Part shown: positions 111 through 3,101 of the stretch, one piece after another
Position numbering within the stretch: position 1 is the first letter of the stretch
How the letters are laid out: every line of letters begins with the position of its first letter
From: Verrucomicrobiaceae bacterium
Lineage (GTDB): Bacteria > Verrucomicrobiota > Verrucomicrobiia > Verrucomicrobiales > Verrucomicrobiaceae
Length of the DNA stretch: 34,741 bases
Reading direction: 5' to 3'
NCBI GenBank assembly: GCA_027487315.1
Contig: JAIYDW010000095.1
Span: 1 to 34,741 of the forward strand
Program-made: the position numbers and the translations under genes
The notes under the pieces: model-generated
The model's database searches: none
Told to the model about the DNA's origin: nothing
What the model saw: only the letters and a program-made list of their open reading frames with translations

Positions 111-238
111 GGCGAACGTAAAGCGCATGCACCCCTACCAGCGAGAGCGCACGTCGATCACAGGGTAAGTGTTGTAATCACGGGGAATCATCTAAACAGA
201 GCGGCTGGTAGGGGTTGTCATGTCGCGTCTTGTTGGGC
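111..238 (-). repeat. Integron attC recombination site (second long attC)
   Basis: Read on the minus strand, this 128-bp imperfect palindrome opens with GCCCAAC, a perfect RYYYAAC inverse core, and closes with GTTCGCC, a degenerate GTTRRRY core. The arms CCCCTACCAGC and GCTGGTAGGGG pair perfectly, next to CATG-containing segments. It begins 8 bases beyond the stop codon of the lipoprotein cassette at 247-615, as expected for an attC at a cassette 3' end. It is closely similar to the site at 621-747. Confidence 0.85.
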
Positions 239-246
239 TTCTTCTT

Positions 247-615
247 CTACCACTTCTCCTCACGGATTGGAATACCCGAGGAATTAAAAAAAACGAGCGC
301 ATGGTAGTTGCCATCGAAGCCGAAATGGGTTGTCGAGTGCGCCCTCCCGAAATCAGTCATGAGCTGCATTCTCTCGGAATCCGTAAATGAAATCGGTTGA
401 ATGAGCTCTTGTAGCTCCTTAAGCGATTTGATCTCTTCATGCGAGCCCGATCCCGAAATCCATTTATCCTTGGATGCACCCTCTAGCGAATCGACCTCGC
501 TGCGCATAGAAGCAAACATCTCCTCAGCGCCATTCGAGCTACTTTCGGGCAATGGGTATGTTTGCGTGCATCCGAAAAGCAATAATGCCCATATAAATTG
601 GAATGGCTTTTTCAT
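247..615 (-). CDS. Integron cassette gene: putative small lipoprotein, unknown function
   Basis: The protein has 122 residues if started at the ATG at 615. An in-frame upstream start at 645 would lie inside the attC site and is less likely. The N-terminus is a lipoprotein-type signal: MKKP, a hydrophobic stretch, then LLLFGC with the lipobox cysteine near residue 16. Outer-membrane or periplasmic attachment is therefore inferred. The mature part is hydrophilic with a charged, possibly helical middle and no family I recognise. The ATG lies only 5 bases past the preceding attC core GTTGGGC, and no Shine-Dalgarno sequence fits in that space. The stop codon is 8 bases from the next attC, so this is a very compact cassette of about 510 bp. 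Confidence 0.75.
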   Translation of the reverse strand: MKKPFQFIWALLLFGCTQTYPLPESSSNGAEEMFASMRSEVDSLEGASKDKWISGSGSHEEIKSLKELQELIQPISFTDSERMQLMTDFGRAHSTTHFGFDGNYHALVFFNSSGIPIREEKW

Positions 616-620
616 ATTTT

Positions 621-747
621 GCCCAACGTAGAGCGCATGCACCACTACCAGCGGCGGCGCACGTCGATCACGGGGTTGGTGTTGTAATTACGGAAAATCA
701 TAGAAACAAGGCGGCTGGTAGTGGTTGCATGACGCGGCTTGTTGGCT
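621..747 (-). repeat. Integron attC recombination site (first long attC)
   Basis: Read on the minus strand, this 127-bp site starts with AGCCAAC (one mismatch to RYYYAAC) and ends with GTTGGGC, a perfect GTTRRRY core. The arms CCACTACCAGC and GCTGGTAGTGG pair perfectly. One arm reads GCAACC where the other pairs to GCACC, leaving an unpaired base of the kind that sets strand choice in attC sites. It lies 6 bases downstream of the 754-1080 stop codon and just before the start of the 247-615 gene. Compared with 111-238, a stem A-T pair is replaced by C-G on both arms. Confidence 0.88.
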
Positions 748-753
748 TTGTCT

Positions 754-1080
754 TCATTCTGGTTGGTCGCCGTGAAAATGTTCCCAAGCAGCGCCTTCAA
801 GCTCTCCACCTGTCAGCAGTGTTCCGTCTTCGGCACGCAGCTCATAGTCGCTCTGGACCCCACCGATAGACGCCGCGCCATCAAGTCCGAGAAGTAGTGT
901 GTAGAATGCGTCTGTCAGTGATCCATCCAAAACAATTCTTAATGCCTTCGCTTGCCCGTCGGACAGTCCCATTGCTGCAATCTGTGTTGCGACCGCCGCG
1001 CCGGATTCAGGATTGAAGTATGTCGAGAGCATGTCCTTCTTCTGGCGGGCGACACAGGCTGCGAATTCGTGCGGAGTCAT
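754..1080 (-). CDS. Integron cassette gene: small soluble protein, unknown function
   Basis: The protein has 108 residues from the ATG at 1080. A TTG at 1095 is in frame but sits inside the preceding attC core, so I prefer the ATG. There is no signal peptide or membrane segment. The protein is mildly acidic, with a helical-looking N-terminal half and a C-terminal part (YELRAEDGTLLTGGELEGAA) suggesting a small beta element ending in WEHFHG. I do not recognise the family. The gene occupies a cassette of about 470 bp: its start is 9 bases after one attC core and its stop 6 bases before the next attC. No clear ribosome-binding site precedes the start. Confidence 0.75.
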   Translation of the reverse strand: MTPHEFAACVARQKKDMLSTYFNPESGAAVATQIAAMGLSDGQAKALRIVLDGSLTDAFYTLLLGLDGAASIGGVQSDYELRAEDGTLLTGGELEGAAWEHFHGDQPE

Positions 1081-1089
1081 TTTATTCTT

Positions 1090-1135
1090 AGCCAACGTTA
1101 GAGCTCATCCACGGCGGGATGGTAGCCTGAGTTCA
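1090..1135 (-). repeat. Short or degenerate attC-like site of the first cassette
   Basis: On the minus strand the segment ends in GAGCTCTAAC followed by GTTGGCT, close to the GTTRRRY core. It resembles the GCGCTCTAC-GTTGGGC end of the site at 621-747. Its other arm is much shorter: GAGCTCATCC and GGAT plus TGAGTTC pair only with a bulge, around an ACGGCG loop, and overlap the stop codon of the 1133-1540 gene. The inverse core is not convincing; a GTTGGAT on the plus strand at 1154-1160 is an alternative outer end inside that gene. The site is placed correctly between two cassette genes but may be truncated. Confidence 0.5.
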
Positions 1136-1540
1136 TTTTGACGGCTTATCGCCGTTGGATGTAGCGACTTGTTCTGCTTTGGTTATGGCTGCCAAAATCG
1201 ATGCGACCGCCTTTTTGGCTTCATCAACCGAAGAAAAATGGAGAAGAAAGCGTTGATTGCTTGGTAGGAACTTACCCTCGCCTTGCGGGGAATACTCAAT
1301 GCCAGGTGCCACCGTGTATATCTCAACATCTGAAGAGGTAAGACCTTCCTTCTCCGTAGACGCAATCCTTACTGCTAAAATCTTGTCGGTCTTCAGGTAA
1401 AATTCATTGGTGCGTTCCTCGGTATTAATTGTGAAGTGTAAGAATCCAACGGGAGCGTCCGGAATGAGCTTGTCGGTTCTTTCGGCGGCGCATCCAATGG
1501 CAACCGTTCCGGCGAATATAATTAGTTGGGCGATTTTCAT
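1133..1540 (-). CDS. First integron cassette gene: putative lipoprotein, unknown function
   Basis: The protein has 135 residues and starts at the ATG at 1540. Its signal is lipoprotein-like: MKIAQ, a hydrophobic core, then VAIGC with a candidate lipobox cysteine at residue 17. The mature part looks like a small alpha/beta domain and ends in an alanine- and lysine-rich helix with a charged tail (NGDKPSK). I recognise no family. It is the cassette nearest intI, so if a cassette promoter lies in the attI region this gene should be the most strongly expressed. The GC content is clearly lower than in the core genes to the right, consistent with foreign origin. Confidence 0.75.
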   Translation of the reverse strand: MKIAQLIIFAGTVAIGCAAERTDKLIPDAPVGFLHFTINTEERTNEFYLKTDKILAVRIASTEKEGLTSSDVEIYTVAPGIEYSPQGEGKFLPSNQRFLLHFSSVDEAKKAVASILAAITKAEQVATSNGDKPSK

Positions 1541-1841
1541 TTTCTTGTTTATTTTGCAGAACAGTGTAATTAGTACGATTCAATATCGCCAAAGGCGATA
1601 TCTTCGCACCTTTAACTCATCCCAGAATGCGGATCAAAGCCCATAAAGTCAAGGCCTGAGCATGTTTCATGGCAAACATTAATAATCAGTAAATTTTGAT
1701 TATTTGGAGATTCGTATGATCTGATATTCGGAACTCCGAGTCTTCACACATATCAAATCACTCAATTTTGATTGATTATTTGTTTGGCTGAACCACTCAA
1801 AAAACACTTGCCAATCCAATGATGTTTTGAACAGTGCTCAC
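1541..1841. promoter_or_regulatory. Presumed attI and promoter region between intI and the first cassette
   Basis: No gene is seen in these 300 AT-rich bases. They must hold the intI promoter and, by analogy with other integrons, the attI site and the cassette promoter Pc. Visible structures are a perfect hairpin ATATCGCC-AAA-GGCGATAT (1583-1601), an inverted repeat AATAATCA / TGATTATT (1681-1705), a related TTTTGATTGATTATTTG (1766-1782) and the palindrome TCGGA-AC-TCCGA (1728-1739). Candidate minus-strand core sites are GTTAAAG (at 1610-1616) and GTTCTGC (at 1556-1562); neither is a perfect GTTRRRY. I could not place convincing -35/-10 boxes. Confidence 0.5.
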
Positions 1842-3101
1842 ATGAGCAATCATCCTGCTTCTCCATCCTGGCGCATGGACCTCAAAATGGCCCGCAACGT
1901 GCCTGACTCCCGCCGCACCGGCTTCGAAATCCTCCTCTCCTGGTTTGAGGACTGGCGCATCTCCCAAAAATTGGAACCTGGACGTGAGGCCGCCCGTGCA
2001 TTTTGGATTCACCAAGTCAAAACCAAGCCCCGCCAGGACTGGCAGTTGGACCAGTGGAAAGAGGCCATCGGTTGGTACCTGGAATGGCTTCGCCATGCCC
2101 AGGCTGGCGGCATCGAGGCCCTCTCCCTTGAGCAACGCGTTTACAACGCAGTGGATCGAGCGGGAGGCCGCCGCGGCTTGGCGCTCCGCACCCGGGAGAC
2201 CTACGGCCGCTGGGCCGTCCGTTACGCCCGCTCACTCGGCGATGCTCGCTCCATGCTCCAACAAGAGCACGCCAGGAACTTCCTGGGCCATCTGGTAACC
2301 GTCGAAAAACAAAGCTTTAGCACTCAGAAACAGGCGCTCAACGCACTCGCTTTCTTCTTCAAAGAGGTCTGTGGGCAGGAGGAGGTGGACCTCCAGGTGC
2401 AGTTGCGCAAAACAACACCCAGGGTGCCGGTGATTGTGAATTTTCAGGAAATCCTCGCCATTCTGAAACGACTCGAAGAGCCCTACCGCCTCATGGCGGA
2501 AGTCCAATACGGCGGCGGACTGCGACTCAAGGAACTGGCGCAGCTGCGAGTCAAAGACGTCGACCTGGAACGCCGACAAATCACCATCCGCCAAGGCAAA
2601 GGCGACCTCGACCGGGTGACCGTTCTGCCAGAGCAACTGGTCGAAAAACTTCGCTCCCACATCAGCGCTGCACGCACCTTGTTTGAGGCTGACCGCGCCG
2701 CCACCTTGCCCGGCGTCGCACTGCCGGGCGCCCTCGCCAGAAAGTTCTCCGCTGCTGGAACCCGTTGGGAATGGTTTTGGATCTTCCCCGCTCCAGATCT
2801 CTCAGCTGATCCTGAATCCGGCACCGTCAGGCGCCATCACATCCATCCCGGCTGCTACGGCAACGCGCTTCGTCGTGCCGTCCAATCGGCGAATATCCCC
2901 AAAAGGGTCACTTCCCACGCCTTCCGCCACGCTTTCGCCACCCATCTGCTCGAATCTGGAAAAGACATCCGCACCATCCAGGAACTGCTCGGCCACGCCG
3001 ATGTCAAAACGACCGAAATCTACACCCACGTCGCCAAAGGAGTCGGTGCCACCGGAGTCCAAAGCCCCTACGACCTCATGCAAAAGCAGAGGTTATCCTA
3101 A
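1842..3101 (+). CDS. intI: Integron integrase (tyrosine recombinase)
   Basis: This site-specific recombinase should insert and excise gene cassettes by acting on attI and folded attC sites. It has 419 residues from the ATG at 1842; an upstream TTG at 1827 is possible. A SAM-like core-binding domain spans about 115-180. The catalytic set is complete: R228 (GGGLRLKE), K253, H359 and R362 (HAFRHAFATH), H385 (LLGH) and nucleophile Y394 (EIYTH). Between them, about 285-320, lies the extra segment that separates integron integrases from XerC/D, with LPGALARKF and WEWFWIFP. About 90-100 N-terminal residues precede the usual IntI start, making it longer than the roughly 340-residue class 1 enzyme. 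Its stop overlaps the stop of the convergent MFS gene. Confidence 0.93.
   Translation: MSNHPASPSWRMDLKMARNVPDSRRTGFEILLSWFEDWRISQKLEPGREAARAFWIHQVKTKPRQDWQLDQWKEAIGWYLEWLRHAQAGGIEALSLEQRVYNAVDRAGGRRGLALRTRETYGRWAVRYARSLGDARSMLQQEHARNFLGHLVTVEKQSFSTQKQALNALAFFFKEVCGQEEVDLQVQLRKTTPRVPVIVNFQEILAILKRLEEPYRLMAEVQYGGGLRLKELAQLRVKDVDLERRQITIRQGKGDLDRVTVLPEQLVEKLRSHISAARTLFEADRAATLPGVALPGALARKFSAAGTRWEWFWIFPAPDLSADPESGTVRRHHIHPGCYGNALRRAVQSANIPKRVTSHAFRHAFATHLLESGKDIRTIQELLGHADVKTTEIYTHVAKGVGATGVQSPYDLMQKQRLS

Follow-up and report, generated by a model that had tools for sequence, protein, structure and literature searches.

Two long sites in the window, which is the whole 34,741-nucleotide stretch analyzed here (contig C7 of genome G000), are almost certainly attC sites of a chromosomal integron in a Verrucomicrobiaceae bacterium, and we hold the whole account, in which such sites recombine as hairpins, with the same high confidence. 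The two sites, designated site A (111-238) and site B (621-747), share 23 base pairs and differ in a single one, which is C134-G212 in site A and A644-T722 in site B. The pair list agrees with the original prediction on the arms and coordinates of both sites, on a stem pair that is A-T in one site and C-G in the other through changes on both arms, and on extra unpaired bases beside the stem, which are T215, T218 and T223 in site A, and T725 and A732 in site B. The paired change is real and well explained, and the principle that attC sites keep their structure is already well known.

Integrase, sites and cassettes

The attC reading itself is borne out by the surroundings of the two sites, where an integron integrase, an attI junction, cassettes on the opposite strand and the anatomy of attC sites were all found. 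A gene for an integron-type tyrosine recombinase, IntI (1827-3101, + strand, 424 aa), adjoins the array and is divergent from the cassettes. Its product scores 335.9 bits against TIGR02249 (cut-off 265) with residues 115-417 matching the family, and residues 116-415 match V. cholerae IntI4 chain 2a3v (E 1.1e-62). From the integrase leftwards to the contig edge, three minus-strand ORFs alternate with sites C, B and A, all of which lie on the + strand; the visible array stops at contig base 1, just past site A, leaving three sites in the window. Site A has its R' box at 111-117, its R'' box at 232-238 and an inner stem formed by 123-142 with 204-226, and the corresponding elements of site B lie at 621-627, 741-747 and 633-652 with 714-735. 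A covariance model matches the two sites at 112-238 (128.5 bits) and 622-747 (133.7 bits), respectively. Site C, which belongs to a short type (87-88 nt) and to the first cassette after attI, was found with the same model at 1090/1091-1177 (41.1 bits), and its R boxes agree with those of its neighbours. The sites display palindromic R and L boxes, an unpaired spacer and one strand folding, as expected of attC.

The junction between attI and the first cassette is predicted at 1556-1562 (GCAGAAC, + strand), an R' half whose match is GTTCTGC, the R'' box of site C, so that an attI-like junction would stand at the end of the array beside intI. The motif AACAGTGTAATTAGTACG directly follows this junction and recurs at two more contig ends, with attC or IntI, as well as in relatives; the attI junction motif is also present at contig C172 and at loci L024/L132, L129, L131 and L027. 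Beside the junction, we also observed a small inverted repeat (1583-1601) consisting of ATATCGCC, three bases and GGCGATAT, which recurs at the same place in relatives. In the L131 copy, both arms of this repeat are altered together (ATATCAGC / GCTGATAT).

The three minus-strand ORFs are those of cassette 1 (1133..1540, 135 aa), cassette 2 (754..1095, 113 aa, listed from TTG) and cassette 3 (247..645, 132 aa, listed from GTG). The listed start of the last of these overlaps site B, and an inner start is therefore likely. Searches of the three ORFs against NCBIfam, Pfam, PHROGs and PADLOC returned nothing above cut-off, the best sub-threshold match being to one Pfam family (E 0.062, 13.4 bits), far under its cut-off. 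Given that the cassettes lie on the - strand, opposite to the integrase, the bottom strand of all three sites is the + strand.

Paired changes in the inner stem

The 23-pair structure was named on A2, a sequence-only alignment of eight sites. Between sites A and B, only 2/46 paired positions differ, both in the focal pair, compared to 13/61 positions of the loop. Across the eight sites of A2, two-sided changes occur in 11/23 pairs, compared to 4.2 in shuffles, and the pair next to the focal one changes from C-G to A-T on both sides in site E of contig C172. The covariance model built from A2 gave 17 matches on 12 contigs of the genome itself (E up to 1), with matches in 31/59 genomes of the family, own genome counted, and spread over many contigs of the relatives.

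The wider set of sites, A7, came from a model search of 67 loci (E up to 1e-5), from whose 118 rows one duplicate was removed to leave 117 sites. In A7, which like A4, A5 and A6 was fitted to the model structure and leans towards it, whereas A2 and A8 were not, 93.4% of 2577 cells pair, compared to 66.9% in shuffles and 28.6-45.9% when the partners are slid, and two-sided changes number 628 cells, compared to 180 in shuffles. The covariation over 117 distinct sites thus lies far above the controls, upholding the claim that pairing is kept while sequence varies. With a sequence-only alignment of 32 long sites, RNAalifold recovered the same helix without any imposed structure, and kept two-sided changes were present in 13/24 pairs. 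At the focal pair, these 32 sites have CG in 21, AT in 8, and GC, CT and AG in 1 each, while among the 117 sites the pair is CG in 54, GC in 36, AT in 13 and TG in 1, mismatched in 6 and gapped in 7. The inner loop of ~61 bases enclosed by the stem (143-203 and 653-713 in the window; 33-94 in A2) is strongly kept in sequence among long sites. A second conserved helix inside this loop was considered and ruled out, with the consensus fold of the 32 sites leaving the loop unpaired. The loop may resemble that of VCR, a likeness on which nothing here rests.

Unpaired changes at this stem in other attC sites, which the original prediction had named as evidence against itself, do occur at the focal pair, in 6/110 ungapped sites, but they are rare, and we do not take them as a refutation. 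Rather, these mismatches look like transient half-way states or decay; they include C.T (L054:2061-2188), A.G (L059:1501-1627) and C.C (L059:924-1050). On trees made from the 50 best-scoring of 75 long sites, parsimony placed 48-59 changes from paired to mismatched on tips and 12-14 on internal branches, and 2-8 two-sided changes on tips and 13-29 on internal branches. The p value for this contrast ranged from 5e-6 to 6e-10 depending on the tie-break, and on a tree built from unpaired columns only it was 2e-5, 0.005 or 0.41, so that the contrast vanishes in one of the six tree and tie-break settings (p 0.41). Mismatches thus look short-lived and compensated pairs long-lived on these trees, with the contrast failing in that one setting.

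Two separate mutations would be unneeded if a single event had copied one arm from the other, for instance by template switching in an extruded hairpin. The two-sided changes offer some encouragement for this, since double transversions are at least as frequent as double transitions (27 vs 23 and 24 vs 13 on two trees, although reconstruction cannot split one event from two on one branch), even though stepwise transversions must pass through true mismatches. Nevertheless, the half-way states C.T, A.G and C.C are found at the focal pair itself, and sites A and B show no tract of several adjacent pairs changed jointly. We consider copying of one arm rather unlikely, and favor stepwise compensation in a hairpin that recombines.

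R boxes, strand and the reach of the array

A single pair in two sites is by itself insufficient to show single-strand recombination, and a comparison of R boxes cassette by cassette shows recombination better. PMC2727003 places the cut of known integrons on the bottom strand, between the A and the C of R'. As a result of such a cut, the outer half of a cassette's own R' sits at the front of that cassette, inside the neighbouring site, and R'' is therefore expected to match the R' opening the same cassette and not the R' of its own site. The comparison covered 41 neighbour pairs from 20 loci at four variable positions, and was limited to pairs no further than 1500 bases from each other in which AAC and GTT could both be read; nine loci duplicating places covered by other loci were named for dropping, taking the sites from 133 to 131. 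R'' matched the R' opening the same cassette perfectly in 27/41 pairs, compared to a mean of 2.3 and a maximum of 9 in 20000 shuffles, and matched its own R' perfectly in only 4/33. The neighbour on the other side was like random (1.93 and 1.96 of 4), in contrast with 3.32 for the cassette partner.

Both pairs within the window are perfect, R'' of site A with R' of site B and R'' of site B with R' of site C, and so are both attI junctions examined, namely R'' of site C with 1556-1562 and the last C172 site with its own attI-like junction. The R boxes of site A match each other at 2/4 variable positions, a mismatch attributable to cassette shuffling. The 14/41 imperfect neighbour pairs could reflect missed sites, decay or rearrangement. 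Judged from sequence, the pattern points to cassettes inserted by recombination in R', and we read the cassette-wise match as the signature of circular cassettes cut in R' and as the strongest evidence for true, probably once-mobile cassettes.

When both strands of each site were folded to address the choice of strand, all four folds beat dinucleotide shuffles, with z values of -2.13 and -3.85 on the + strand and -3.39 and -3.19 on the - strand for sites A and B, respectively; the strand used was not told apart, as the two strands fold about equally and energy alone does not identify it. Among mismatch types, G.T exceeded A.C on the bottom strand in all cells (93 vs 47), after collapsing by cluster (68 vs 40) and on the sequence-only alignment (53 vs 36). 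This excess weakly supports the bottom strand, and speaks against an RNA read from the cassette strand.

Such an RNA, be it a terminator, an attenuator or a structured cassette RNA, could in principle keep the hairpin, in which case the paired change would reflect RNA folding. The arms do fold as the top strand read with the cassettes, and the sites sit directly after ORFs. On the other hand, an Rfam search of the window found no family at gathering score, coding-strand RNA would favor wobble pairs seen as A.C on the bottom strand, the opposite of the excess just described, and RNA does not explain an R-box match that links neighbouring sites and not one hairpin. We therefore regard an RNA element as very unlikely. 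Chance, by which two unrelated substitutions landed on partners, is scarcely credible: although A and B differ in one pair only, two random substitutions among 46 paired positions fall on partners with a probability of 1/45 and also restore a Watson-Crick pair with one of ~1/135, and among the 117 sites the focal pair recurs as CG, GC and AT and is mismatched in just 6, which refutes chance at the family level.

Sites of the same kind were also observed elsewhere. In the same genome, three attC sites and a junction resembling the attI junction of the window lie at the end of contig C172 (L021:7148-9452), and this array is either another integron of this type or a variant from a different strain within the assembly. 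The genome has a third integrase-like gene at C206:223-1113, which scores under the cut-off. On the 82-kb contig C112, a lone attC site (L022:7745-7870) lies directly behind a 143-aa ORF for which PHROGs and PADLOC gave no match; its R and L boxes are weakened by one A.A and one G.G mismatch, and it looks like a cassette left outside an integron. In genome G006, that of a relative, the model has 49 matches, which are spread over eleven stretches of nine contigs (L109-L119) and arranged in same-orientation clusters, and an integrase search of this genome found none above cut-off (best 88 bits vs 265). Because these clusters share one orientation and obey the cassette-wise R-box rule, they are cassette arrays, scattered and without an integrase, and a dispersed repeat unrelated to integrons is ruled out. 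The G006 arrays lie away from any intact integrase, whereas the array in the window adjoins one.

Proposed mechanism and place among known integrons

The integrase, the sites, their covariation and the cassette-wise R-box match are direct observations, and by analogy with known integrons the folding in the cell, the strand, the cut position and the chemistry would be as follows. The + (bottom) strand, when single-stranded, would fold so that R' meets R'' and the two L arms, like the two sides of the long inner stem, pair with each other, with extrahelical bases left over on the 3' arm. After binding this hairpin, IntI would cleave the R' box of the bottom strand between A and C and join the cut strand to attI or to another attC, and cassettes would in this way be taken up, or released, as circles. 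The inner stem would move with the cassette as one unit, and its two arms would coevolve within the site; a mutation on one arm would weaken the hairpin and be lost or compensated, and the A-T/C-G difference between sites A and B would be one such compensated pair. R'' would instead coevolve with the opening R' of its cassette, which is now in the neighbouring site.

The long sites share several features with VCR and the attC sites of sedentary chromosomal integrons described in PMC2727003, including a length of ~126 nt, R and L boxes, an unpaired spacer, and extrahelical bases on the R''-L'' arm of the bottom strand; they also share conservation within a lineage, as PMC8618304 reports for chromosomal integrons. 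They differ from VCR in their sequence, in a conserved inner loop of ~61 nt and in having any base nearest R'', where VCR has G. Extrahelical bases are found on the 3' arm of the + strand, as in attC, and the 5' arm is almost bulge-free (2/117 at the matching column). Among the 117 sites, the extrahelical base nearest R'' is C in 54, T in 25, G in 20 and A in 18, and the other extrahelical base is T in 107. The G usual in attC at the extrahelical L'' position is thus replaced by T223 in site A and by A732 in site B. According to PMC2727003, this G is the sole conserved L'' base and the strand determinant. PMC3053210 describes natural and made extrahelical variants, together with integrases that tolerate them; as such variants are known, we treat the non-G base as variation within a known kind, and given these natural exceptions we do not take the L'' G as defining attC. 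One site with unusual extrahelical bases is attC-dfrA1 (A-N7-8-C), from which the present sites differ in that T almost always fills the first position and any base the second, across many genomes of one family.

That attC sites are conserved in structure and not in sequence, and that covariance models suit them, is textbook knowledge (PMC9024848, PMC8352920), and Verrucomicrobiota are already listed among integron-bearing phyla (PMC8618304). The taxon-specific covariance models of Ghaly et al. 2021 (PMC8352920) likewise treat attC sequence and structure jointly, with covariation at paired positions; Verrucomicrobiota are not among the 11 taxa of that work, the word being absent from its main text.

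The closest named match to IntI is on a Verrucomicrobiaceae MAG contig (L024), at 99% protein identity. Residues ~1-105 (1827-2140) form an N-terminal extension ahead of the integron-integrase core, which gave no match in a Pfam search and could be aligned in five relatives (overall identity 53-99%). This extension is retained in relatives from Verrucomicrobiaceae to Rubritalea, but the genome also has another integrase lineage that lacks it; integrases of that lineage, such as the one on C139, align only from residue 121 on. A tie between the extension and long attC sites is ruled out, as long sites adjoin both integrase types. We tentatively suggest, as a possibility on the doubtful side, an integron lineage of Verrucomicrobiota marked by a long conserved loop, loss of the strand-marking G and an extra N-terminal domain of ~105 residues, in which bulge position and the invariant T alone may specify the strand, perhaps with the help of the extra domain.

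These results show, from sequence alone, attC sites held by structure in a lineage not covered by the 11 taxa of PMC8352920. They indicate that the parts of a site obey different rules, the inner stem coevolving within the site and the R boxes within the cassette, and the cassette-wise R-box rule gives an easy way to recognize real cassettes in draft genomes. With their free extrahelical base, the sites are useful for studying what determines the strand that recombines.
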